A stretch of 64,000 bases of DNA from Symbiodinium natans (taxonomy: Eukaryota; Sar; Dinophyceae; Suessiales; Symbiodiniaceae): contig CAJNDS010000183.1 of assembly GCA_905221605.1 (NCBI GenBank), forward strand, positions 139,606-203,605, written 5' to 3'. A model generated the notes under the pieces. That model searched no databases, was not told where the DNA came from, and saw nothing but the letters and a program-made list of their open reading frames with translations. The position numbers and the translations under genes are program-made. Below, piece after piece: positions 4,705 through 55,260 of this stretch (the first letter of the stretch is position 1; every line of letters starts with the position of its first letter).

Positions 4705-5000
4705 ACTGGGCGGGATTTAACGGATGCGCGAGCACTCCCAGCGCCCCTCTTCGAGGTGTCACAAACAACAGCTGATGGGCTTGACACGGTTTAGGGTTTA
4801 GGGTTCAGGGTTCAGGGTTTAGGGTTTGGGTTTAGGGTTTGGGGTTTGGGGTTTGGGGTTAGGGTTTAGGGTTTGGGGTTTGGGGTTTGGGGTTTAGGGC
4901 TTAGGGGGCAAAACAATCCACTAGACTCCGGAAAAACCAGGCCAAGCCGCTGCCGTGCATCGTACCGTACGGAGTCTCGAGGCTGGTTCCGCTCTCGTAG
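4705..5000 (+). CDS. Two exons joined across a telomeric-repeat intron
   Basis: Exon 4705-4788 (28 codons) ends ACG|GT. Exon 4905-5000 starts after CTTAG|GG and runs 31 codons to a TAG. The intervening 116 bp is a TTTAGGG-type array. Joining the two in phase gives a continuous frame of natural composition (for example LQTGRDLTDARALPAPLFEV, then KPLPCIVPYGVSRL). Upstream, a second open frame (about 4575-4700) is offset by one base across a run of ten Gs, so exon 1 may really be longer. The family is unknown. The in-phase join could be chance (about one in three), hence moderate confidence. Confidence 0.45.
4789..4904 (+). repeat. TTTAGGG-type array acting as a candidate intron
   Basis: The array mixes TTTAGGG, TTCAGGG and TTTGGGG. 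It starts with GTTTAGGG (GT donor) and ends CTTAG|GG, and the flanking reading frames join in phase. Confidence 0.5.
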
Positions 5001-5257
5001 ATCCACTCGCCGCCCGGGGGGAGCACCGGGGTGACGCCACGGGCACCTATCACTCAAAACGGCGGCCCGGATGCGCACACATGGCTACTTCGAGGGTCAT
5101 GGTACTCATAAACCAAATAATGCCTGTGCTTATAGCCCACTTATAAGCCCCTTAAGTGCCCTAATATGGATATAAGTACAGCTGTAGGTACAGTTATCAT
5201 TGGTTCAAGTGGTGCCGAAACAAGCTACTGCTCGTCATGGGTAGCTACTGGTAGGGA

Positions 5258-5676
5258 TTATAAAGTATAGCCAACACTAAGTGAACTCTGACAATGCTGT
5301 GGCCAGGCACCCTAAACCCTAAACCCTAAACCCTAAACCCTAAACCCTAAACCCTAAACCCTAAACCCTGAACCCTGAACCCTGAACCCTAAACCCAACA
5401 CCCTAATGGAAAGGAGGGCCACTGCGGCCCAACGACCCGGGCCCTTCACCTCTGTCTCCAGTTCGCCCAAGGCGTCGACGAAAACCCAGTGCCGCGTCAG
5501 CATCTGCACGGTCTCCTGCTGGCTGGCATGGGCTTGCATCCTAAACCCTAAACCCTAAACCCTAAACCCTAGACCCTAAACCCCAAACCCCAAACCCTAA
5601 ACCCTAAACCCTAAACCCTTGTTGCTTGGTGCACAAGGTGGTAAGCACAAGCAAGCAACAACAACAGAGCCCACAT
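5258..5676 (-). CDS. Small secreted-protein gene with telomeric introns
   Basis: Three minus-strand exons. Exon 1 (5676-5617) starts with ATG and encodes a signal-peptide-like N terminus (MWALLLLLACAYHLVHQA). Exon 2 (5540-5402) encodes a 46-residue segment with strong GC3 bias (for example HWVFVDALGELETEVKGPG). Exon 3 (5311-5258) adds 17 codons and TAA. Introns 5616-5541 and 5401-5312 consist of TTTAGGG repeats in the sense orientation, with GT starts and TTTAG|G ends. Exons 2 and 3 join in phase; exons 1 and 2 are off by one base within a GGG run, which may be a homopolymer error. A product of about 83 residues would be secreted. The function is unknown. Confidence 0.5.
5312..5401 (-). repeat. 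Telomeric array, candidate intron 2 of the secreted-protein gene
   Basis: TTTAGGG on the minus strand, starting GTGTTGGGTTTAGGG and ending TTTAG|GG. Confidence 0.6.
5541..5616 (-). repeat. Telomeric array, candidate intron 1 of the secreted-protein gene
   Basis: TTTAGGG and TTTGGGG units on the minus strand, ending TTTAG|GATG before the next exon. Confidence 0.6.
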
Positions 5677-9898: not shown

Positions 9899-9915
9899 GT
9901 TGTGGATCTTGTCCT

Positions 9916-10298
9916 GAGTTCTTGCTTCCTGAAAGGCGCTCTGGACTATGAGCTTGGACTTCAGAGCGACTGCCGATGATGCTCATGGCTGACGGCCTCG
10001 CGTTGGATGTTTTTGTCTTGCTGTAGTGGAAGTGCATAGTACATGCGTGCATGCTGAGTTCTTGCTTCCTGAAAGGCGCTCTGGACTATGAGCTTGGACT
10101 TCAGAGCGACTGCCGATGATGCTCATGGCTGACGGCCTCGCGTTGGATGTTTTTGTCTTGCTGTAGTGGAAGTGCATAGTACATGCGTGCATGCTGAGTT
10201 CTTGCTTCCTGAAAGGCGCTCTGGACTATGAGCTTGGACTTCAGAGCGACTGCCGATGATGCTCATGGCTGACGGCCTCGCGTTGGATGTTTTTGTCT
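9916..10298. repeat. 140-bp tandem repeat, about 2.7 copies
   Basis: Copies start at 9916, 10056 and 10196 (GAGTTCTTGCTTCCTGAAAG) and are almost identical, implying recent expansion. Confidence 0.95.
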
Positions 10299-10329
10299 TT
10301 TCTTTCATGGCTTCGCGTGGATTGGACGT

Positions 10330-20614: not shown

Positions 20615-23280
20615 TCACTCCGCCGCAGCACCTCCTCCCCCGTTGTTGCCACCACCGCCCGGAGCGCCCAGGCTACTTCGGAGCTTCTGGAGGCCCATCG
20701 AGTGAATCCTCTACTCCCCTTCGAACCTTCATAAAAATAACATGTTTGATATCTGTTTGGGTTTTATATGAACAAAAAGGTTTAAAAAAAAAAAAAGTCC
20801 CAAGGAAGCTATAGAATCATCACGAATCCCGGCCCTGTCAAGACGGCATTGAACAGGCCCATGCCGCCGCAGCAGCACACCAAGCACCCCCCGGTCCTTG
20901 GGAACCAAAGGAACCCTAAAATTGGGACCAGACCCTATACTACTATCATCCTTATCAGGGTATAAGAACCATAAACCCTTTTAGGGTTCACCCTAAAATT
21001 GGGACCATAGACCCTATACTACTATAATCCTGATGAGGGTATATAAACCATAACCCTTTTAGTGCACTAGAATCCTGATGAGGGTATGTGAACCCTACAC
21101 CCTTTTCGGGTACTATAATCCTTATGAGGGCATCTACTACTATAATGCTTCTTAGGGTATGTGAACCATAAACCCTATACTACTATAATCCTTAGATTAG
21201 GGTATATGAACCATAAACCCTATACTACTATATTAATAATCCTTAGATTAGGGTATGTGAACCATAAACCCTTTTCGGGTACTAGAATCCTGATGAGGGT
21301 ATGTGAACCCTACACCCTTTTCGGGTACTATAATCCTTATGAGGGTATCTACTACTATAATCCTTCTTAGGGTATGTGAACCATAAACCCTATACTACTA
21401 TAATCCTTAGATTAGGGTATATGAACCATAAACCCTATACTACTATAATCCAAAGGTTAGGGTATATGAACCATAAACCCTATTACTACTATAATCCTTT
21501 GATTAGGGTATGTGAACCCTACACCCTTTTGGGGTACTATAATCACTATAATCCTTATGATGGTATATGAACCCTAAACCCTTTGTGGGCTCATTTACAA
21601 AAATCCGATCTTTATGAGGGTATGTAACCCTAAACCCTTTTAGGCTTCATTTGGTTCTCAAGGGTCTTGCGGATGTCGAGGTCCACGCTGCGCTCGAAGG
21701 CCAGCACTGCGCCCTGCTCCACCACGAGCTCCTCAAGAGAGGGGTTTAGGGTTTAGGGTTTAGGGTTTAGGGTTTAGGGTTTAGGGTTTAGGGTTTAGGG
21801 TTTAGGGTTTAGGGTTTAGGGTTTAGGGTTTAGGGTTTAGGGTTTAGGGTTTAGGGTTTAAAAGGGGCCCTTAGTCTTATTCCCCTATATAACCCTTAAA
21901 ATATTCCTTATATAGTCCCTACGCAACTAAAAAGCCCTAAATAACCCCCCAACCACGAGCTCCTCGCCATCTTCGAGCTCCTTCTTCATGACTGTCCCTC
22001 CAGCCTACACTGAACTTGGAACCCGAGTATTAAGGATTTTGGCTGTTTCTTGGGAGTAGTTACAGTACCCGAAAATTCAAAATTGTTCCCAAGATTCCCT
22101 AAGCAGCTTGCAGGAAGACCATGCCACTCCCGTGCAAGGTGTTCATGAAAAGCCCCTGGCCTCCGCAGAAGCATGTCCCGACTGAACGCACCCGCTTGAT
22201 GTCAACGGACCAATCCTTGGGGACGAAATGAACCCTAAAATGGTTTATGGCTCATAGCTATACCGACTATACCTTAATAAAGAATTATAGAAATATAGAG
22301 TATATGACCCCAATCTTAGGGCTCATTTGGTCCCCAAGGATCGGAACCCAAGGCAGCCAAGAAGGCGCCCCGGTTGAAGACCATGCCGTCGTACTTGGCG
22401 AGATCAATGGGGACGATCTTGGCAGGGAAAGTGGGCGTGAGGCCAACTTGCTGGCAATCATCCGTCTCCTCGGTTGGCCCCTATAGAAACCCTCTGAAGA
22501 ACATTCCTGAATTACGGTCCTCTTAAACCCAATGAGGGAAGATGAACCCTAGACCCTAAACCCTAAACCCTAAACCCCAAGTGCCTAGTCTCGTTCAAGA
22601 AGTGCAACCTGAAGAGGTTCTCACCAGCACAGCAGCAACGCTTGAACCCCTGCTCGCAGCCGCCGACGTCTACGTCCGGGTTCAAGCCGGGACTCATGTA
22701 GGCCATGCTGCCTATACTCCCCTTAGAACCTTCATAAAAACACAATATGTTTTAATATCCTCTTGGGTTTTACATAAACAAAAATTTGAAAAAAAAAACA
22801 ATAATAATTCCCAAGAAAGATATAGCTGCCGGGCTCGCAGGTGACGGACTCCCCAGGATGGATGTCCATCTCCAGCACCTGCGAGTACTCGTCGCCCATG
22901 ATGTGATACTGGCTGTTGGGCGCTGGAACGTTGGACCAAACTTTCCTCGTTCATTTTTGGGACAGTATTAAACATTTAGATGTTTATTCATTATTGGGTT
23001 TAAGTATCCGTGAAGATGTAACATGTTACCCAACTATGGCAAAGTTTCAGTCCACTTTGAAGCTTGACATCGCGCGCTGCTGACAGGGGCTGGCTCATGG
23101 ACTCTTGCCGTGGGCTCTGCACAAACATCGCGGCGCGCGGCGGCTAAGTCACTCACTCGGCTCAGTCCGCCAGCCGCCGGGCTCAAATTTTCGTATGAAG
23201 GCTTGAGCTGAAGAATGCAATCCCCCCCTTTGGTCCACAAAAGTACATGCGCGCTCTTGCTCAACAGCCCCGCCCGGAAT
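20615..23280 (-). CDS. AIM24-family protein, nine exons separated by introner-like insertions
   Basis: Exons (minus): 23280-23159, 22945-22830, 22711-about 22582, 22446-22343, 22215-22108, 22004-21963, 21731-21667, 20896-20819 and 20708-20615, ending TGA. The spliced product matches the AIM24 domain (DUF124/TIGR00266 type) throughout: YHIMGDEYSQVLEMDIHPGE, GLTPTFPAKIVPIDL, GGQGLFMNTLHGSGMVFL, AGGTVMKKELEDGEE, AFERSVDLDI and GGMGLFNAVLTGPG, then a Gly/Asn-rich tail. AIM24 proteins are linked to mitochondrial cristae organisation in yeast; bacterial relatives are uncharacterised. The Cys-rich FKRCCCAGENLF segment is typical of the eukaryotic algal/protist branch. Introns start GA or GC, not GT. 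The junction of exons 3 and 4 (TTTAGGG-containing, about 22447-22581) is off by one base; a missing G in TTGGCC would fix it. No ATG was assigned, so the N terminus lies in exon 1 or further upstream. Confidence 0.85.
20709..20818 (-). mobile_element. F6 introner-like element (last AIM24 intron)
   Basis: Inserted with target duplication GATTC. On the minus strand the intron runs GATTCTATAGCTTCC to GGGGAGTAGAG|GATTC, so it is GA-AG. The F6 core (CCCAAGGAAG, a poly-A/T tract, GGTTCGAAGGGGAG) matches the elements at 22712-22829 and 55128-55221. Confidence 0.8.
20897..21666 (-). mobile_element. TIR introner-like element containing a minisatellite (AIM24 intron)
   Basis: The ends are inverted (CTTGAGAACCAAATGAAGCC against GGTTCCTTTGGTTCCCAAG) and flanked by GACC on both sides. 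Intron GA-AG, 770 nt. The interior (about 20935-21650) is a minisatellite with GGGTATRTGAACCATAAACC and TACTACTATAATCCTTA boxes. Removing the intron plus one GACC joins IRK to TGGCLVCCCGG in frame. Confidence 0.8.
20935..21650. repeat. Minisatellite of about 45-60 bp units
   Basis: About fourteen diverged units with ACTATAATCCTTA, GGGTATRTGAACC and CCTTTTCGGGT boxes. It lies wholly inside one AIM24 intron. Confidence 0.85.
21732..21962 (-). mobile_element. Telomeric-array insertion with 14-bp target duplication (AIM24 intron)
   Basis: ACCACGAGCTCCTC occurs at 21721-21734 and again at 21952-21965. Between them are a TTTAGGG array (21742-21860) and an AT-rich tail with CCCTATATAACCC. On the minus strand the intron is GA-AG (GGCGAG|GAGCTC to CTTGAG|GAGCTC), 231 nt. 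Removing it gives the expected AIM24 sequence LEDGEELVVEQGAVLAFE. Confidence 0.85.
22005..22107 (-). mobile_element. Introner-like insertion (AIM24 intron, GC-AG)
   Basis: Target duplication GCTG. The intron runs GCTGCTTAGGGAATC to TTCAGTGTAG|GCTG, 103 nt. The join gives MVFLQ then AGGTVMKKE, matching AIM24. Confidence 0.75.
22216..22342 (-). mobile_element. TIR introner-like element, CTTGGGGACCAAATGA family
   Basis: Inverted ends (CTTGGGGACCAAATGAGCCC against GGGTTCATTTCGTCCCCAAG), target duplication GAT. Intron GA-AG, 127 nt. The ends closely match those of 20897-21666, so both belong to one family. The join gives FLAALGS then DWSVDIK. Confidence 0.8.
22712..22829 (-). mobile_element. F6 introner-like element (AIM24 intron, GC-AG)
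   Basis: GGCAGC is duplicated at both borders. The element has inverted ends TATATCTTTCTTGGG and CCTTAGAACC..TATA-type. Intron GC-AG, 118 nt. The join gives CEPGS then MAYMSPGL. Confidence 0.8.
22946..23158 (-). other. First resolved AIM24 intron
   Basis: Exon 1 can end at GAGCC|GAGTGAGT (GA) or GAGCCGA|GTGAGT (GT). Only the GA choice keeps the frame into AACGAG|GAAAG. No clear target duplication beyond GA. Confidence 0.5.
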
Positions 23281-24359: not shown

Positions 24360-24760
24360 TGGGATGTTCCCCCTTCCAACAACAGTCCTTGATAGGGATT
24401 ATAGTAAGTACCCCCGAATCCTAAACCCTAAACCCTAAACCCTAGACCCCAAACCCCCTAAATCCTAAACCTTAAACCCTAAACCCTAAACCCAAAACCT
24501 TAAACCCTAAATACCAAGCAAGGGCCGTTAGTAGAAGGGGGAACATCCCAATGAATGTAACAAACAGCTACCCTAAACCCAAAACCCTACAACCCTAAAC
24601 CCTAAACCCCCTAAACCCTACAACCCTAAACCCTAAACCTTAAACCCTAAATACCTATTAAGGGCCGTTAGTACAAGGGGGAACCCTAAACCCTAAACCC
24701 TAAACCCTAAACCCTAAACCCTAAACCCTAAACCCTAAACCCTAAACCCTAAACTCAGCA
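24360..24760. repeat. TTCCCCCTTA-family fragments mixed with CCCTAAA blocks
   Basis: The left half has GGATGTTCCCCCTT and CAGTCCTTGATAGGGATTAT. Inverted right halves (GTTAGTAGAAGGGGGAACAT) occur at about 24527-24550 and 24666-24684, separated by CCCTAAA arrays, as if arrays had invaded or duplicated part of the element. Confidence 0.6.
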
Positions 24761-32007: not shown

Positions 32008-32235
32008 GTTTAGGGTTTAGGGTTTAGGGTTTAGGGTTTAGGGTTTAGGGTTTAGGGTTTAGGGTTTAGGGTTTAGGGTTTAGGGTTTAGGGTTTAGGGT
32101 TTAGGGTTTAGGGCTTGGTTTAGGGTTAGGTTTAGGGTTTAGGGTTTAGGGTTTAGGGTTTAGGGTTTAGGGTTTAGGGTTTAGGGTTTAGGGTTTAGGG
32201 TTTAGGGTTTAGGGTTTAGGGTTTAGGGTTTAGGA
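32008..32235. repeat. TTTAGGG array present only in duplication copy 1
   Basis: About 32 units. Copy 2 has unique sequence after the same GGCTCCATGGCC. Confidence 0.9.
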
Positions 32236-32348
32236 CCCCATATATACCCTCATGAAACCGAAAGGGCCCATACAGCGGAACCCTGTAAAGAAGGCAAGGA
32301 CCATGCAGCGACCCCTTCAGGCTCGGGTTGCCATCCAGTCCCTTCTTC

Positions 32349-32500
32349 GGGTTTAGGGTTTAGGGTTTAGGCTTTTAGGGTTTAGGGTCTGGGGTTTAGG
32401 GTTTAGGCTTTTAGGGTTTAGGCTGTTAGGGTTTGGGGTTTAGGGTTTAGGGTTTAGGCTTTTAGGGTTTAGGGTTTAAGGGGATTAGGGTTTAAGAGGT
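32349..32500. repeat. TTTAGGC / TTTTAGGG variant array
   Basis: Units alternate TTTAGGG with TTTAGGCTTTTAGGG. Confidence 0.85.
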
Positions 32501-32665
32501 TTAGGGGCTCCATGGCCCTAAGTCTGCCCCTAGGCAAGCTTGGCTGCCCGGCCCGATGTCTTTCAGAAGGGAGATCCTGGGAGGGCTTAGGCCTGAGGGT
32601 TTAGGGTTTAGGGTTTAGGGTTTAGGGTTTAGGGTTTAGGGCGGAGAGACAACCGAAGTAGCATA

Positions 32666-32968
32666 TCAAAATAGGGTACCCCTTCTTGGGGTTGGCGACT
32701 CGAAAGGGAACCTTGAACCAAACACCAGTGGGCTACCAAGTGGGTGTAGGTTTGGGGCCTTAGCGGCTGAAAAGCACACACTGAGGGATGCTGAATCTCC
32801 CACATGGGACGCCTGTTTCCGCATACGAAACTCCTGGCCAGCAGGGGCCTTCCCAAGATGGACGCACGAGATCTTGCGTCTGAAGTCGAGATCCCCTGAA
32901 CCCAGTGCTTTAAACCAAGCTCGCTCGAGGTAGAGCGCCACTAGGGATCCAGGCAACTGCTGCGACAT
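32666..32968 (-). CDS. Unidentified exon with ATG, duplicated at 52.7-53.0 kb
   Basis: An ATG at 32968 opens 100 codons on the minus strand (starting MSQQLPGSLVALYLERAWFK). The same frame is open in the other duplication copy, with few amino-acid differences over the first 65 codons (through QASHVGDSASLSV). The two then diverge, because copy 2 has a small insertion and the true exon probably ends at CTCA|GTGTGTG. Conservation of the frame between diverged copies supports coding. Function unknown. Confidence 0.5.
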   Translation of the reverse strand: MSQQLPGSLVALYLERAWFKALGSGDLDFRRKISCVHLGKAPAGQEFRMRKQASHVGDSASLSVCFSAAKAPNLHPLGSPLVFGSRFPFESPTPRRGTLF

Positions 32969-33469
32969 AGCTTCCGGTGGTGGGAGGGCAAGGTTGCTTT
33001 GCCTTCACTAAGGGACTGCTCTAATTTGCTTTAAAGCCCAACAACGTCACACTTGGGGCGAGTTGGTGTGTTGATGGTGTGGGTTAGAGGAGGTCTCTGC
33101 AAGATGGGGCATACCCCAGCAGGTCCTTCTGCTTTGAAACCGGTGCTGCTCACAAAATGGCGCAACGCTGGCGACCGCGCATTGTGTCGTTCATGACATG
33201 CGGGTTCATGACGCAGTGAGCACCGACACACAAAACAGCCTCTACATGGAGCGCTTCAGTTTTCTTCTGTGCAGGATGCAGAGCCTCAGCAGAGCTGGAC
33301 TCAAATCTATAGCCGTGGCAAGAGCCACCGCAGTCGCAGGGGGCACTCGAAAGTTGCACGGGTCCAAACCTCTACGTGTCCAACACGAAGGGAGCGGATC
33401 AGGGATGAGGTCGCGATACCCGGACGTTGCAGAACTCTAGGTGTCTAGCTGTGGGCCAATCCTGAACCC

Positions 33470-35640: not shown

Positions 35641-35728
35641 AAGATCCTACACCTCAAAGCTGCAGGTCAAGCCCTGGAAGATCGCCTCCGGGAGCTCTGC
35701 CAGCTGGTTGTGCGACAAACACAGCGTC

Positions 35729-38434
35729 TCAAGGGAGGGAGGTCAAGCCCTGGAAGATCTTCTCGGTGAGCTCTGAAAGCTGGTTGTGCGACAAATACAG
35801 CAACTCAAGGGAGGTCAAGCCCTGGAAGATCTTCTCCGGGATCTCTTCCAACTTGTTGTTGCGCAAAAACAGCATGCGAAGGGAGGTCAAGCCCTGGAAG
35901 ATCACCTCCGGGAGCTCTGCCAGCTGGTTGTGCGACAAATCCAGCTTCTGAAGGGAGGTCAAGCCCTGGAAGATCGCCTCCGGGAGCTCTGCCAGGTGGT
36001 TCCTGTTCAAATCCAGCTCCTGCAGGGAGGTCAAGCCCTGGAAGATGGCCTCCGGGAGCTCTGCCAGCTTGTAGTTTTGGCCCATTTCCAGCCTCTGAAG
36101 CGAGGTCAAGTTCTGGAAGATCTTCTCCGGGATCTCTTCCAGCTTGTTGTTGCTCAAAAACAGCATGCTAAGGGAGGTCAAGCCCTGGAAGATCGCCTTC
36201 GGGAGCTCTGCCAGCTGGTTGTGCGACAAACCCAGCTTCTGAAGGGAGGTCAAGCCCTGGAAGACCGTTTGCGGCAGCTCTGCCAGGTCGTTCCAGCTCA
36301 AACCCAGCTTCTGAAGGGAGGTCAAGCCCTGGAAGATCGCCTCCGGGAGCTCTGCCAGGTGGTTCCTGTTCAAATCCAGCTCCTGCAGGGAGGTCAAGCC
36401 CTGGAAGATGGCCTCCGGGAGCTCTGCCAGCTTGTAGTTTTGGCCCATTTCCAGCCTCTGAAGCGAGGTCAAGTTCTGGAAGATCTTCTCCGGGATCTCT
36501 TCCAGCTTGTTGTTGCTCAAAAACAGCATGCTAAGGGAGGTCAAGCCCTGGAAGATCGCCTTCGGGAGCTCTGCCAGCTGGTTGTGCGACAAACCCAGCT
36601 TCTGAAGGGAGGTCAAGCCCTGGAAGACCGTTTGCGGCAGCTCTGCCAGGTCGTTCCAGCTCAAACCCAGCTTCTGAAGGGAGGTCAAGCCCTGGAAGAT
36701 CGCCTCCGGGAGCTCTGCCAGGTGGTTCCTGTTCAAATCCAGCTCCTGCAGGGAGGTCAAGCCCTGGAAGATCGCCTCCGGGAGCTCTGCCAGGTTGTTG
36801 CTGCTCAAATCCAGCGTCTCAAGGGAGGTCAAGCCCTGGAAGATCGCCTCCGGGAGCTTTGCCAGGTTGTTTACGCTCAAATCCAGCGTCTCAAGGGAGG
36901 TCAAGCCCTGGAAGACCGTTTGCGGGAGCTCTGCCATGTGGTTGTAGATCAAATCCAGCTTCTGAAGGGAGGTCAAGCCCTGGAAGATCGCCTCCGGGAG
37001 CTCTGCCAGGTCGTTCCTGTTCAAATCCAGCTCCTGCAAAGAGGTCAAGCCCTGGAAGATCGCCTCCGGGAGCTCTGCCAGCTTGTAGTTTCGGCCCATT
37101 TCCAGCTTCTGAAGCGAGGTCAAGTTCTGGAAGATCGTCTCCGGGAGCTCTGCCAGGTTGTTGTCGCTCAAATCCAGCGTCTCAAGGGAGGTCAAGCCCT
37201 GGAAGACCGTTTGCGGGAGCTCTGCCAGCTCGTTTTTGCACATTCGCAGCTCCTGAAGCAAGGTCAAGCTCTGGAAGATCGCCTCCGGGAGCTCTGTCAG
37301 CTGGTTGAGCGACAAAGACAGCGTCTCAAGGGAGGTCAAGCCCTGGAAGACCGTTTGCGGCAGCTCTGCCAGGTCGTTCCAGCTCAAATCCAGCTCCTGC
37401 AGGGAGGTCAAGCCCTGGAAGATCGTTTCCGGGAGCTCTACCAGCTTGTTTTGGCCCAGTATGCCCAGCTTCTGAAGGGAGGTCAAGCCCCGGAAGACCT
37501 TCTCCGGGAGCTCTGGCAGGTTGTTGTTGCCCAGATCCAGCGTCTCAAGGGAGGTCAAGCTCTGGAAGATCGCCTCCGGGAGCTTCGCCAGGTAGTTGTC
37601 GTGTAAATCCAGCGTCTCAAGGGAGGTTAAGTTCTGGAAGATCGCCTCCGGGAGCTTTGCCAGTTTGTTGTTTCTCAAATCCAGCTTCTGAAGCGAGGTC
37701 AAGCCCTGGAAGACCGTTTGCGGGAGCTCTGCCAGCTGGTTGTGCAACAAATACAGCGTCTCAAGGGAGGTCAAGCCTGCAAAGGCGTGGTCGGAGACGT
37801 TGAGGAGCTTGTTGTTGCCGAGGTCCAGGACTCGGAGTCTGTGGAGGTGGGCGAAGTTGGCGTCCTCCAAGGTTGTCAGCCCGTTCTCGCTGACATCCAC
37901 CACTTCCAGCCAGAGGTTCTGCGTGAAGTTCGGCAAACTCACAAGCCGGTTCCCTTCCACGGTTCGATGGCCCTTTTTGTCGGTCTTGCCACCTAGAAGG
38001 AGCTGCTCCAAGCTGAGCAGCGGTTTGAGAACCTGGGTGGGGAGGTCGGTGATACTGTTTTCGCTGAGCGACAGGAGGCGCAGCTGCGCCAGGCCGTCGA
38101 AGGCCTCATCCTCCAGGTGCTCGAGGCGTCCTCTGCCCAGGTCCAGGGCTTCCAGGCAGCTCAGGCGCCGGAATCGTTTCGACGGCAGCGAGGTCAACGT
38201 GTTGTTGGAGAGGGATAGGCGCCGCACATAGCAGCCCAAGGGGTCCAACGCTGCTTGGGCGATGCTGTGGAAGCCAGTCAGGGCCAGCTCCGGCTGTCGG
38301 AGTACAGCTGCTAACCTGCAGCTTTCCAGGCGCACGGGCGGGCTCAGGCAGATTTTGGTCCCTGCCGACGAACCCTTAGTGTCAGGCTGGTGTGTCCAAC
38401 CTCGGAGACGCACTCCGTGCCCAATGGCAGCCAA
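35729..38434 (-). CDS. Leucine-rich-repeat protein (large LRR exon)
   Basis: A 901-codon open frame with about 30 tandem 24-residue LRRs of the form LxxLPEAIFQGLTSLQELDLxxN, typical of protist extracellular or receptor LRR proteins. The first repeats (about residues 70-240) are diverged and the later ones nearly identical, implying recent tandem expansion. The first codon is TTG at 38434, so the true start lies in an upstream exon; an acceptor-like CGGCAG|GG near 38365 may mark the real exon start. The frame ends prematurely at 35729: a four-base duplication (GGGAGGGAGG at about 35733-35742) shifts it, and the repeat then resumes in the next frame to about 35655, where TTTGAG|GTGTAG could be a donor. 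An antisense 606-codon frame is a shadow of the 72-bp repeat. Confidence 0.8.
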   Translation of the reverse strand: MAAIGHGVRLRGWTHQPDTKGSSAGTKICLSPPVRLESCRLAAVLRQPELALTGFHSIAQAALDPLGCYVRRLSLSNNTLTSLPSKRFRRLSCLEALDLGRGRLEHLEDEAFDGLAQLRLLSLSENSITDLPTQVLKPLLSLEQLLLGGKTDKKGHRTVEGNRLVSLPNFTQNLWLEVVDVSENGLTTLEDANFAHLHRLRVLDLGNNKLLNVSDHAFAGLTSLETLYLLHNQLAELPQTVFQGLTSLQKLDLRNNKLAKLPEAIFQNLTSLETLDLHDNYLAKLPEAIFQSLTSLETLDLGNNNLPELPEKVFRGLTSLQKLGILGQNKLVELPETIFQGLTSLQELDLSWNDLAELPQTVFQGLTSLETLSLSLNQLTELPEAIFQSLTLLQELRMCKNELAELPQTVFQGLTSLETLDLSDNNLAELPETIFQNLTSLQKLEMGRNYKLAELPEAIFQGLTSLQELDLNRNDLAELPEAIFQGLTSLQKLDLIYNHMAELPQTVFQGLTSLETLDLSVNNLAKLPEAIFQGLTSLETLDLSSNNLAELPEAIFQGLTSLQELDLNRNHLAELPEAIFQGLTSLQKLGLSWNDLAELPQTVFQGLTSLQKLGLSHNQLAELPKAIFQGLTSLSMLFLSNNKLEEIPEKIFQNLTSLQRLEMGQNYKLAELPEAIFQGLTSLQELDLNRNHLAELPEAIFQGLTSLQKLGLSWNDLAELPQTVFQGLTSLQKLGLSHNQLAELPKAIFQGLTSLSMLFLSNNKLEEIPEKIFQNLTSLQRLEMGQNYKLAELPEAIFQGLTSLQELDLNRNHLAELPEAIFQGLTSLQKLDLSHNQLAELPEVIFQGLTSLRMLFLRNNKLEEIPEKIFQGLTSLELLYLSHNQLSELTEKIFQGLTSLP

Positions 38435-38439
38435 GCAGC

Positions 38440-40716
38440 GGTGCGCCCGTCAGCGTTGCGCCAAGCAGCGCTGTGCCACTCGATCTTCCCACTCGGCACG
38501 ACGTCAGATACACTTTTCACACCGAAGTGAACGTGTGGACCGTACGTGATGCTGTTCACGGTCAACGTGTCATATCTCATCTTCTCGACGTCCTCTGCGA
38601 ACAGCTGCATACTGATTTTACCATCGAATCGAGTTCAGGAAGCAACGAAAGATGATGATTTTGCTTTTATGAATTGCCAGGAAATCGTACAGTGTGAACC
38701 CCTTTCAAGAAGCCTAATTCTCGAAGTCCTCCAGGTAGATGACCCGGTCATTGCCCTCCGGGACCTCGATGGTGCAATAGTAGTTGTTGCTGATGCAGCC
38801 GTCATCGTGTAGGGTGCAGGACCTGAGCGGCCAACAGAACAACGAATGCACAATTTCGCCCTCTGCCCGTGTCAAGAAAACTGCGAGATAAGCTTTGTCA
38901 GGATCGGGCCCGTGGGTGATAGTCCAACGCCCAAGGTCCTCCGGCACCGTGCAGAAAATGACCGACATGTCAGAGGACAAACGGGCGAGGAGATTTTCAG
39001 CAATGACATTCCTCTTCGTCTTAGAACCCCTTGACACTTCTCACCCTGGTCCTGGCCAGAGGTTGGAGCAGACCCAGAAGATCTTACGCTCCGATGCAGC
39101 GGCGCCGGGTCCTGCGACAGAGCGATGCCGTCTGATCCAGCCTTCAAGCGTCAGTCCTGACTTCTGCTTAACCGGCTTAGCCTCGCCTCCTGAGAGCAGC
39201 GGCACGGGAAGCATCTGAAGTCGCCGGAGTGCCCGGGGTACGTATCCGGGGAGCGAAGAAACAGATAAAGTACCAGAAGCAGGATGGGGGAGTACAGTGC
39301 CTTGAGGCATCGCAGCACCAGCCGGCGATGACGGGCAGGAAAGACTGTGCTGTCAATGATCGGTTGCTTCGATTGCGCTGGCTCCACAGAGCTCCCACCC
39401 AGAGCCTTGGCACGCTCGACAGAGCGGCAGGCACAACAGGTGTGCGCAAGGCTGATGTACACCGCCAGGAATTGTAGGATGTCAGAGGGGAAGGCGAAGG
39501 TTGGGCTTATGCCTCAGTGCGCATGACGCGAGCTGCCCGAAAGTTCTGGCGACAGTTTCATTCGTGCTCAAGTCTGTTCAGGCTGCTGTTGCTGAGGTCC
39601 AGCTCCTCCGCATCCCCGAAGTTGCCACGCACGGTCGTCTCCAGCGTCAGCTCGGACATGGCGGTCACCTGAGCCGTGCTGAACTGACTCTCGGCACGGC
39701 CTTCTCTAAATCTTGCTTTTGATTTCAACAAGGAGCCACGGTGAGCAAGTAGGTGAGCATGTACCCCAGATCCATCACCACATCCATGACGGCAGCACCT
39801 CGGCTTTGTCCCCCGCAGGAAGACACGTCGTCTACACGTCCCCTCGCTGTCACTCGCTCTCGCTCACTCCGAGGGGCCATAGCGACACCACCGGGAATCT
39901 GGCCGCACAAAGAGGATACTCGGGTACAGGCTGTTGAAGGTCAGCAGCACATAGAAGATCCAGAAGTATCGTTTCAGAACCGAGGCTGCTGGGATGTTCT
40001 GATAAATTGCAAATGTGACGGTTCCTCCCAGAAGCGGTACCTGGGGGGCACCTTTACGTCCTGGATTGCACTGATTCGGACGCTTACTGCAAACATGGCG
40101 TACTTTCCCGACGATTCGGGGAGTATCTGAGGCACCCTGTCCTACAAGTATTGGTGAGAACCCACCTTCCCGAAGGCTTGCAGGAGCACGGTCATTATCT
40201 GGATCAGTGCGACCTTTCAAGGCGCTCAGGTCAGAAAAGCGCACGACATGATTCAAGGAACTCTTGCTTCGCAAGCCTTGCCTTGACAACGTAGCAGTTG
40301 CCGTGGACTCCAAAGTGCCGCTCGAAGATGATCTGGGAAGGTTTCAACCTCCATTGTCTGCTGTTGCTGTTCATGAAGAACACCACCACATAATGATAAT
40401 TGAAGGATTTGGACCGCCTGATGAGTTGGCCGCTCTTCCTCCCTAACTTTCACCTGCGATTTCCTTCTGAACAGTGCGCAACCAAAGAATGCAGCCTGAC
40501 ACGGACTCTAAGCACGCCAGATCTATTGCTGCACAAATCGGCCTGCGGGACACCCGACGCCGGCACCGCAGAAGGTCGTGACCTCAAGCTAAACAGGTTG
40601 TTTCGCAAGGAAAGTCTTTGCAAACGCCAAGTGTTGAACGAAGTGTTCCTCTCGTACTGTGCTTCGACTACTGTCGTAGCATGTCGTATCTTCGAGTTCA
40701 TCCATAGGACAAAGCT

Positions 40717-51989: not shown

Positions 51990-53515
51990 TCCCCATTAGA
52001 GATAGGGACTATAAGAGGGGGGCACTACAATCCCCATTAAGGACTCTTAGCATAAGCAGGAACATCCCAACTTACAGTACCTGGAAGTGGAAAGTGAGCC
52101 TCGAAGTATCCGACGATCACGACCCTCCTAGCTCGGCATTTGAGGTCGATCTTCACCCGCCTCACTCGAATAGCTGGCCCGAGTCGTTAAGGTAAACCCT
52201 ACACCCTATACGCCTTAATTAAACCCTAAACCCTAAACACCCTAAAGTGGGGGCACTAACCTAAACTGCTCCCATCAACAGTCGTCAAACACATGATGGG
52301 AAGCACCTCAGGACCAAGGATCTGGGGTTATGGGTTGCGGGTTTAGGGTTCAGGGCTCCATGGCCGTTAACAGTTCTCAAAACCATGGTCCCTTTTGAAG
52401 TACCCTAAATATTAGGGGTCTCAGAAGTGACCACGTTCCCCATACAGATACCCCCTTAAAACTCAAGGACCCGTACTGCAGAACCTTGTAAAGAAGGCAA
52501 GGGCACCAGGGCACCATCTATATGGGGGCCCTTCAAGAGGATTCTACTCTATTTGGGGTATAAAAGGGGAGCCCCTTATTTTGGGAAATACCTCCTTGAC
52601 CCTAAGTCTGCCCCTAGGCATGCTTGGCTGCCCGGCCCGATGTCTTTCAGCAAGGAGATCCTGGGAGGGTTTAGGGCTTAGGGTTTAGGGTAAGTCTGGG
52701 CGGACAGGCTTGCTGGGTTTAGGGCGGAGAGTGCCACCCCTTTTAGGGGTTGGCGACTTGACAGGGAACCTTGAACCAAAACAAGCACGAAAACAAGGGT
52801 ACCAGAGGGCTACCAATTGGGTGTAGGTTTGGGGCCTTAGCGGCTGAAAGCACACACTGAGGGATGCTGAATCTCCCACATGGGACGCCTGTTTCCGCAT
52901 ACGAAACTCCTGGCCAGCAAGGGCCTTCCCAAGATGGACGCACGAGATCTTGCGTCTGAAGTCGAGATCCCTTGAACCCAGTGCTTTAAACCAAGCTCGT
53001 TCGAGGTAGAGCGCCACTAGGGATCCAGGCAACTGCTGCGACATAGCTTCCGGTGTGGACTGCTCTACGCAACAACGTCACACTTGGGCGAGTTGGTGTG
53101 TTGATGGTGTGGGTTAGAGGAACTCAGAGGTCTCTGCAAGATGGGGCATACCCCAGCAGGTCCTTCTGCTTTGAAACCGGTGCTGCTCACAAAATGGCAC
53201 AACGCTGGCGACCGCGCATTGTGTTGTTCATGACATGCGGGTTCATGACGCAGTGAGCACCGACACACAAAACAGCCTCTACATGGAGCGCTTCAGTTTT
53301 CTTCTGTGCAGGATGCAGAGCCTCAGCAGAGCTGGACTCAAATCTATAGCTACGTGGCAAGAGCCGCCGCAGTCGCAGGGGGCACTGGCGTTTCGAACCC
53401 TCGAAAGTTGCACGGGTCCAAACCTCAACGTCTCCAACACGAAGGGAGCGGATCAGAGATGAGATCGCGATACCCGGACGCTGCAGAACTTAGGTTTCCA
53501 GCTGTGGGCCAATCC
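51990..53515. repeat. Segmental duplication, copy 2
   Basis: Partner of 31590-33470. It starts with the foldback arm ATTATAATCCCCATTAGAGA and contains the exon copy at 52743-53044. It is shorter because the TTTAGGG arrays are missing, and just beyond it there is a C-rich insertion at about 53545-53640. Confidence 0.9.
52743..53044 (-). CDS. Duplicated exon, copy 2 of the MSQQLPGS frame
   Basis: ATG at 53044. The first 65 codons match copy 1 (32968) with two or three substitutions. Beyond CTCAGTGTGTG the copies differ by a short insertion (ACAAGCACGAAAACAAGGGT), consistent with the coding part ending there. Confidence 0.5.
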
Positions 53516-54639: not shown

Positions 54640-55260
54640 TTAGCCCTCTGAATCTCGTGAGTATTCGCCCTGGCACTGCATTAATGTCAGTACTACGTTC
54701 TTATCTTCACAGAGGCAGTTCCTCCGTTTCGTCCGCATTGTCAGGCCGGTAGAGGCCCTTCTGTGGCAGGTAAGAGTGGTCCGCTTTGACCAAAGCGTCA
54801 GACTTCTGAGCGACTGCAGGTCATCAATCTTGCTGAGGCTGCTGAGGCTCTGAACTAGAAATCCAGCACTTTGCGAAAGGCCCGAGGAAGTTGGCATCAA
54901 CCCGCCAGTGAAAGCAGAACTTCGTTGGAGTGCTGACTCAGAATGCCATAAGACCCTGAGGCTCTGCTTTCCAACTTCCATTCCAAGCAGTTCCCAACGG
55001 GATGCAAGAGGAAAGATCCTTCGCGGAATGAACTCCGACAAAAGATGAGGTTTGGGGTTGGGGGTGGGGTTGGGTTGAGGTTTGAATTTGCAATGCCTGT
55101 CAATAGAGCCATAAGACGACGTGCCAGCTCCCCTTAGAACCTTAATAAACATAGTAGGTTTAATATCCTCTTGGGGTTGATATAAACAAAAACCACCAAA
55201 TCATTCCCAAGGGGGATATAGCTGGGATCTTGAATGGCAGGGCTGGTGTTTTGCAAGCGC
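54640..55260 (-). CDS. Unidentified protein interrupted by an F6 element
   Basis: Minus strand. Exon upstream of 55222 encodes EVALAKHQPCHSRSQ. Removing the F6 element (55221-55128) joins LARRLMALLTGIAN in phase. Further downstream two overlapping frames are open: FREGSFLLHPVGNCLEWKLE (55035-54900) and RRIFPLASRWELLGMEVGKQ continuing to LSSLSKIDDLQSLRSLTLWS (55030-54640). I cannot choose between them; a C-rich tract (about 55047-55085) may contain another intron. Family unknown. Confidence 0.45.
55128..55221 (-). mobile_element. F6 element, third copy, candidate intron
   Basis: Shares CTATATCCCCCTTGGGAATG and GGTTCTAAGGGGAG with the two AIM24 copies. Flanked by AGCT on both sides. Splicing would be CT-AG if the TATAG end seen in the other copies has been lost. 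Confidence 0.65.

Follow-up and report, generated by a model that had tools for sequence, protein, structure and literature searches.

The AIM24 gene and its introns

The DNA analysed here (the window, 64,000 nt in length) comprises the last 64 kb of contig C183 (203,605 bp) in the Symbiodinium natans genome assembly (759 Mb, 2543 contigs). Its minus strand carries a gene of the AIM24 family, in which the coding exons are separated by eight introns with GA-AG or GC-AG termini (Table 1). We found that the opening bases of the following exon are repeated at the start of all eight introns, and these border repeats, together with copies of the intron sequences elsewhere in the genome, bear on how the introns arose.

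The predicted protein matched the AIM24 profile PF01987 of Pfam from end to end (profile positions 1–205 of 205; E 3.5e-53), and its score of 180.8 bits compares with a cut-off of 25.7. The match was obtained with the first gene model, in which the first seven residues were in the wrong frame. An exon 1 starting MSSFKVD, under which intron 1 had a repeat of just two bases, was rejected because homologues fixed the frame. The top-scoring protein among 5.8 billion sequences, P0001 (EukProt, lgn; 275 amino acids, aa), aligned to the spliced AIM24 protein without gaps, and 253/275 residues were identical. P0006, an open reading frame (ORF) of 181 aa from transcriptome MMETSP0191 (taxid 126664, Sorites sp.), matched at 170/181 residues and covers junctions 3–8; it presumably derives from a dinoflagellate symbiont of the foraminifer Sorites sp. 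The two alignments show that the relatives' sequences have no insertion or loss at the junctions covered. P0001 may be a gene prediction, and P0006 is therefore the sole transcript evidence. Retention of any one intron, each taken singly, introduces a premature stop codon. The Pfam match and the gapless alignment to P0001 bear out the proposal of the initial annotation that deletion of each insert with one repeat copy restores the AIM24 reading frame.

A protein search of the genome gave eight close exon matches, all on contig C183, with the short exon 6 unmatched, and did not find a second near-identical AIM24 copy. The other match to the protein was one distant family member with 34% identity. 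In a search of the genome for the AIM24 family, two distant members were listed, and in both the frame is open across the whole domain. The full-length match to the domain is shared with the AIM24 family, and the gene structure alone is unusual here.

Table 1. The AIM24-family gene of the window, its coding exons and its introns
Feature	Position in window	Strand	Termini and length	Remarks
AIM24-family gene, ATG to stop	20615..23128	minus		9 coding exons, 275 aa; model from Pfam match and guided by homologues
AIM24 coding exons	23128-23049, 22945-22830, 22711-22593, 22468-22343, 22215-22108, 22004-21963, 21731-21667, 20896-20819, 20708-20615	minus		
Intron 1	22946..23048	minus	GA-AG, 103 bp	Repeat GAAA at 23045-23048 and 22942-22945; element 22946-23044 with ends CT and AG
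Intron 2	22712..22829	minus	GC-AG, 118 bp	Repeat GCAG at 22826-22829 and 22708-22711; intron 8 family; genome copies with 4-bp target-site duplication (TSD)
Intron 3	22469..22592	minus	GA-AG, 124 bp	Repeat GAGA(C) at 22589-22592 and 22465-22468; short TTTAGGG run inside
Intron 4	22216..22342	minus	GA-AG, 127 bp	Host G and 2-bp TSD AT; terminal inverted repeat (TIR) CCTTGGGGACC, end-to-end fold; genome copies
Intron 5	22005..22107	minus	GC-AG, 103 bp	Repeat GCTG at 22104-22107 and 22001-22004
Intron 6	21732..21962	minus	GA-AG, 231 bp	14-bp direct repeat at 21952-21965 and 21721-21734; ~17 CCCTAAA units; different origin
Intron 7	20897..21666	minus	GA-AG, 770 bp	TIR family of intron 4; enlarged by tandem repeats inside it, with periods including 45 and 215 bp
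Intron 8	20709..20818	minus	GA-AG, 110 bp	Repeat GATT at 20815-20818 and 20705-20708; intron 2 family

Border repeats and splice sites

Each intron can be cut in 4 to 15 ways that are equivalent in the messenger RNA (mRNA), and just one cut per intron fits a G(A/C/T) donor with an AG acceptor; the termini in Table 1 (six GA-AG, two GC-AG) are those of this rule-conforming cut. All cuts inside a repeat yield identical mRNA, so that complementary DNA is unable to locate the cut within a repeat. The initial annotation had named six direct repeats, all of which are present, and the two introns that it left out have them as well (GAAA in intron 1, GAGA(C) in intron 3). It had also listed the repeats at unequal lengths; the 14-mer of intron 6 is real, but the inequality is otherwise partly due to chance, the matching block being about four bases wide.

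When the start of each intron was aligned at the junction with the start of the next exon, positions 1–4 agreed in 8, 8, 8 and 7 of the eight introns, and positions beyond these in at most 4/8; the two positions preceding the junction agreed in 2 and 5 of the eight. At positions 2–4, an intron and its own exon matched in 23/24 cells, against a mean of 0.91 of 3 positions for the 56 cross pairs, and the observed sum was reached in 14 of 200,000 permutations. Of 48,381 arbitrary donor–acceptor pairs taken from the window's minus strand, 1.7% showed a 4-base match. With intron 6 set aside, the repeat copies in the seven other introns differed from the exon copies at a single base in 28. This mismatch, in intron 4, is accounted for by a duplication of 2 bp. 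The dinucleotide CT occupies intron positions 5–6 in 7/8 introns (chance ~5e-8), defining elements with the ends CT...AG; the exception is intron 6.

The U1 consensus is CAG/GTAAGT (the slash marks the splice junction throughout). The AIM24 donors matched it at 2 to 5 of nine positions, against an average of 2.9 for any G in the window. Six GA donors among eight have a probability of ~0.001 at a GA frequency of 19%, in a gene that was chosen for its oddity. In a published donor table (PMC10666404), GA donors make up 17–24% in five of the seven columns and about 0 in the other two, and a report on Symbiodinium describes 5′ splice sites of low strength, donors of the GC and GA types, a G after the AG and a frequent G at +1 (PMC4083563).

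Intron 4 forms a fold that spans the whole element, starting at its first base and closing at the AG (z −7.21 relative to shuffled sequences), and folding of introns 1, 2, 3, 5 and 8 was no better than that of shuffles (z −0.86 to 0.72). RNA hairpins that pair the splice sites were therefore rejected as a general feature, since they were strong in intron 4 only among the six introns folded.

Relatives of the introns within the window

Two pairs of introns at unrelated positions of the gene resemble each other. Introns 2 and 8 are 78% identical across 116 aligned bases, and introns 4 and 7 have common ends, intron 7 being enlarged through internal tandem repeats. At 770 bp, against 108–121 bp in the 30 usable family copies described below, intron 7 looks like an introner that has grown by such repeats. 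TIRs were clear in introns 4 and 7 (level reached by 0 of 500 shuffles each); that of intron 6 was reached by 36 of 500. A partial relative of the intron 2/8 element, aligned at 55.13–55.19 kb and listed as 55128-55230 on the minus strand, has no visible 4-bp duplication. No relatives of introns 1, 3 (outside its TTTAGGG run) or 5 were found in the window.

A sub-terminal CTTGGGRACC-like motif is shared by introns of the gene. When the motif derived from introns 4 and 7 was scored on introns 1, 2, 3 and 5, the sum over eight ends was 59 (mean 45.4, 0 of 100,000 draws reaching it); with intron 8 included, it was 73 over ten ends (56.7). Sharing of the motif is no more than a hint that the elements may have a common descent.

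A scan of the window for other elements of the CT...AG type, flanked by 4-bp repeats and having inverted ends, gave three candidates, against 0–1 in ten simulated sequences, of which only intron 7 was convincing. In 200 kb of contig C802, no copies were listed of introns 1, 2, 4, 5 and 8, of the intron 7 ends or of the non-telomeric part of intron 6; for intron 3, there were matches of the TTTAGGG type and, outside that run, a single partial relative (54 bp, 85%). Viral scans returned no match in one and one match in another, and a scan of genome contigs returned seven bacterial matches; none of these matches looked like this genome, and all were taken as chance.

Copies of the elements elsewhere in the genome

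The elements of introns 4 and 2 are both present in many copies across the genome, with 40 matches scored for either one. For intron 4, a first look gave 1267 loose candidates, of which the best 40, including the window's own, were scored; the other 39 were fetched, and 30, whose ends could be recognised exactly, were usable. A 2-bp TSD was present in 29/30 copies, compared with a mean of 4.9 and a maximum of 14 in shuffled data, and other registers or lengths of duplication matched in at most 10/30, apart from parts of the 2-bp one. The element begins with C (28/30) and ends with G (29/30), both inside the duplication, and has the form CCTTGGGG...CCCCAAGG, ending AAGG, so that the G after the acceptor AG is itself element sequence (29/30). 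The TIRs of these copies are near-perfect (22–25 of 25 in the 30 copies). The base preceding the duplication was C in 9, A in 9, G in 8 and T in 4. These observations refute a uniform 4-bp TSD, as considered for all seven introners, in the case of the intron 4/7 family.

For intron 2, the best 40 of 1226 loose candidates, including the window's own, were scored; 20 of the other 39, being near full-length matches, were fetched, and 16 were usable. An exact 4-bp TSD was found in 14/16, none longer, compared with a shuffled mean of 0.9 and maximum of 9. The first base of the duplication was T in 9, G in 3 and A in 2. One copy outside the usable set (L073) has GAAG on both sides, as judged by eye.

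The genome copies thus show that the acceptor AG is supplied by the element end, which agrees with the earlier claim that the last AG belongs to the insert. The accompanying claim, that the first two intron bases are the first two of the duplication, holds for the 4-bp duplication of the intron 2/8 family but not for the intron 4/7 family, where the duplication is 2 bp, the donor G is the exon base before it, and the second donor base alone is duplicated. The initial view of the introns as insertions with target-site duplications was supported, and the donor bases do come from the target; in the intron 4/7 family, the G after the AG is element sequence. The description of the insertions as recent was not substantiated. 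In addition to the 78% identity of introns 2 and 8, the median identity between intron 4 and the 30 copies is 89% with gaps ignored (79–84% in full-length BLAST matches), against a median pairwise identity of 94.5% among the copies, which indicates that intron 4 is not among the youngest members.

Origin of the introns

We conclude that introns 1–5, 7 and 8 are very probably introners, that is, short non-autonomous DNA transposons with 5′-CT...AG-3′ ends that inserted into AIM24 exons, and that intron 6 arose by another event. Introns 1, 3 and 5 are putative members on evidence from within the gene, namely their repeats and CT...AG ends.

Intron 6 obeys the GA-AG/G rule, yet its ends fit neither family. 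It is possible that it arose by break repair with telomere-like filler, or by a retroelement-like insertion. The shared rule would also be expected of an introner like the others whose ends were altered by growth of the telomere-like repeats; we consider this unlikely given the 14-bp repeat, the lack of CT at positions 5–6, and a non-telomeric part that has no relative in the window (the search was confined to the window and 200 kb of contig C802).

It is very improbable that the introns are ancient and that their border repeats reflect a selected splice consensus (AG/G acceptor, G donor) with chance agreement beyond it. A G is frequent at +1 and after the AG in Symbiodinium (PMC4083563), and agreement at repeat position 1 is therefore expected; in addition, the ApaG gene near 5 kb has a single junction that could be recognised, of the GT-AG type, with a repeat of only ~3 bases by eye. 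However, the agreement within the AIM24 introns extends over positions 2–4, where the repeats differ from intron to intron, and related elements with target duplications of their own lie elsewhere in the genome, which contradicts an ancient origin for introns 2, 4, 7 and 8. Spread of the introns by reverse splicing of RNA instead of DNA transposition would account for related introns at different positions of one gene but is scarcely credible, as reverse splicing is to our knowledge not expected to create a target duplication, and the genome copies have 2-bp or 4-bp duplications, mostly at sites without a donor-type G, and, in the intron 4 family, TIRs.

Several observations weigh against the introner origin of the seven introns. 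Exact TSDs were absent from 1 of the 30 usable intron 4 copies and 2 of the 16 usable intron 2 copies, and further copies had been excluded beforehand: 9/39 fetched for intron 4, whose ends fell outside the search pattern, and 4/20 for intron 2, for which the pattern required a CT start. Both samples are top-scoring, small and not random; they were drawn irrespective of gene context, and some copies may be introns themselves. TIRs in introns 1, 2, 3, 5 and 8 did not exceed those of shuffles, and no transposase was found in the parts of the window scanned with Pfam. The predicted removal of the introns from mRNA is read from the relatives' proteins and one transcript-derived ORF, none of which comes from this organism. 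Finally, the excess of GA donors (6/8, against 17–24% in most published gene sets) could reflect a target preference of the elements and not a filter exerted by splicing.

If the seven introns are introners, their splice sites can be derived from the insertion. Where the TSD is 4 bp long, it gives donor positions +1 and +2, and its second copy the exon base after the AG. Where the TSD is 2 bp long, the exon base that precedes it becomes +1 and the duplication +2 and +3, with the element providing both the AG and the next G. If that exon base is G, excision from it through the AG leaves the mRNA unchanged. Both families yield GN...AG/G, and the insertion is therefore scarless only beside a G. 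Insertion itself would need no preceding G; only those insertions with G at +1 would be spliced and kept. A transposase from elsewhere would move the elements, and their inverted-repeat ends would make an acceptor available in either orientation. A G occupies the would-be +1 position in 8/30 and 3/14 genome copies of the two families, compared with 8/8 AIM24 introns, as a splicing filter would predict.

On balance, we lean towards the view that two transposon families of differing insertion chemistry (one with a 2-bp duplication and an element-borne G, the other with a 4-bp duplication) have converged, in one gene, on a single scarless intron of the form GNNNCT...AG/G. The 5′ splice site would then be a composite, with the target providing most of +1 to +4, the transposon end providing +5 and +6, and little match to U1, and the G rule of the spliceosome would be the filter that decides which insertions become introns. 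The unusual donors seen in Symbiodiniaceae, GA and GC, would thereby become derivable from insertion sites. Copies outside genes would show the action of the transposon and copies in exons what splicing accepts; comparing both over all family copies would measure which 5′ splice sites are tolerated, including ones with hardly any U1 pairing.

Comparison with known introner systems

The basic mechanism, in which the element brings the AG and the target brings the donor, has been published before for introners of Symbiodinium. As described by Gozashti et al. 2022 (PMC9860276; Fig. 2B), introner family 1 of Symbiodinium microadriaticum has 4-bp TSDs, TIRs and a carried 3′ splice site, and its 5′ splice site is co-opted from the TSD. 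The initial assessment of the AIM24 introns as a rare case in which the donor can be read from the target site is therefore not upheld. Compared by description and not by sequence, the intron 2/8 family resembles family 1 in its 4-bp TSD, its element 3′ splice site and its TSD-derived donor. In contrast, the intron 4/7 family differs from family 1, as there described, in its 2-bp TSD and element-encoded AG and G.

The 2-bp variant with an element-borne G may be new. We did not meet it in passages of PMC9860276, PMC7789003, PMC10666404, PMC11453091, PMC11782384, PMC4083563, PMC6123633, PMC8045281 and PMC10522408, although no search was aimed at it and its absence from the literature is not asserted. 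According to a review (PMC11453091) that covers Roy et al. 2023, introner transposons drive intron gain in dinoflagellates, and Polarella glacialis has 15 families with at least 100 introns each. The five dinoflagellate genomes of Roy et al. 2023, as presented there, have introner-driven gain in common with the AIM24 gene, and that study may already include the 2-bp variant. In Amoebophrya A25 and A120, the section of Farhat et al. 2021 (PMC7789003) on introners reports inverted repeats within the intron, direct repeats of 3–5 nt over the boundaries and non-canonical splice sites. That account gives no clear dinucleotide signature, whereas 8/8 AIM24 introns obey G(A/C)-AG/G.

Telomere-like repeats and other features of the window

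The window contains 52 arrays of at least four TTTAGGG/CCCTAAA units, in both orientations, and 705 exact units, compared with 51 in 200 kb of contig C802. The window lies at the contig end and so may be subtelomeric. Among the arrays listed, direct repeats of 13 to 15 bases were found at the intron 6 array and at arrays at 24571 and 32009-32506; longer ones consist of tandem-repeat letters. The idea that telomere-like arrays generally insert with duplications of ~14 bp was unsupported, as a control with random positions, in which satellites predominated, yielded such repeats at a higher rate than the arrays.

On the minus strand, 4900-5560 holds exons of a gene with an ApaG domain (PF04379), whose GT-AG junction has no 4-bp repeat. 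One exon of this gene seems, by eye, to begin directly after the TTTAG/G of a telomere-like array. A perfect tandem repeat with a 140-bp unit in 2.8 copies occupies 9914-10299. Similar dispersed segments are found at 32600-33440 and 52670-53460, with near-identical translated ORFs and a 78-bp array flank that is 93.6% identical. Finally, an open frame of ~900 codons at 35664-38449, on the minus strand, is built on a 72-bp tandem unit, and the part of it that was scanned with Pfam (from 37.6 kb upward) gave a leucine-rich repeat match.

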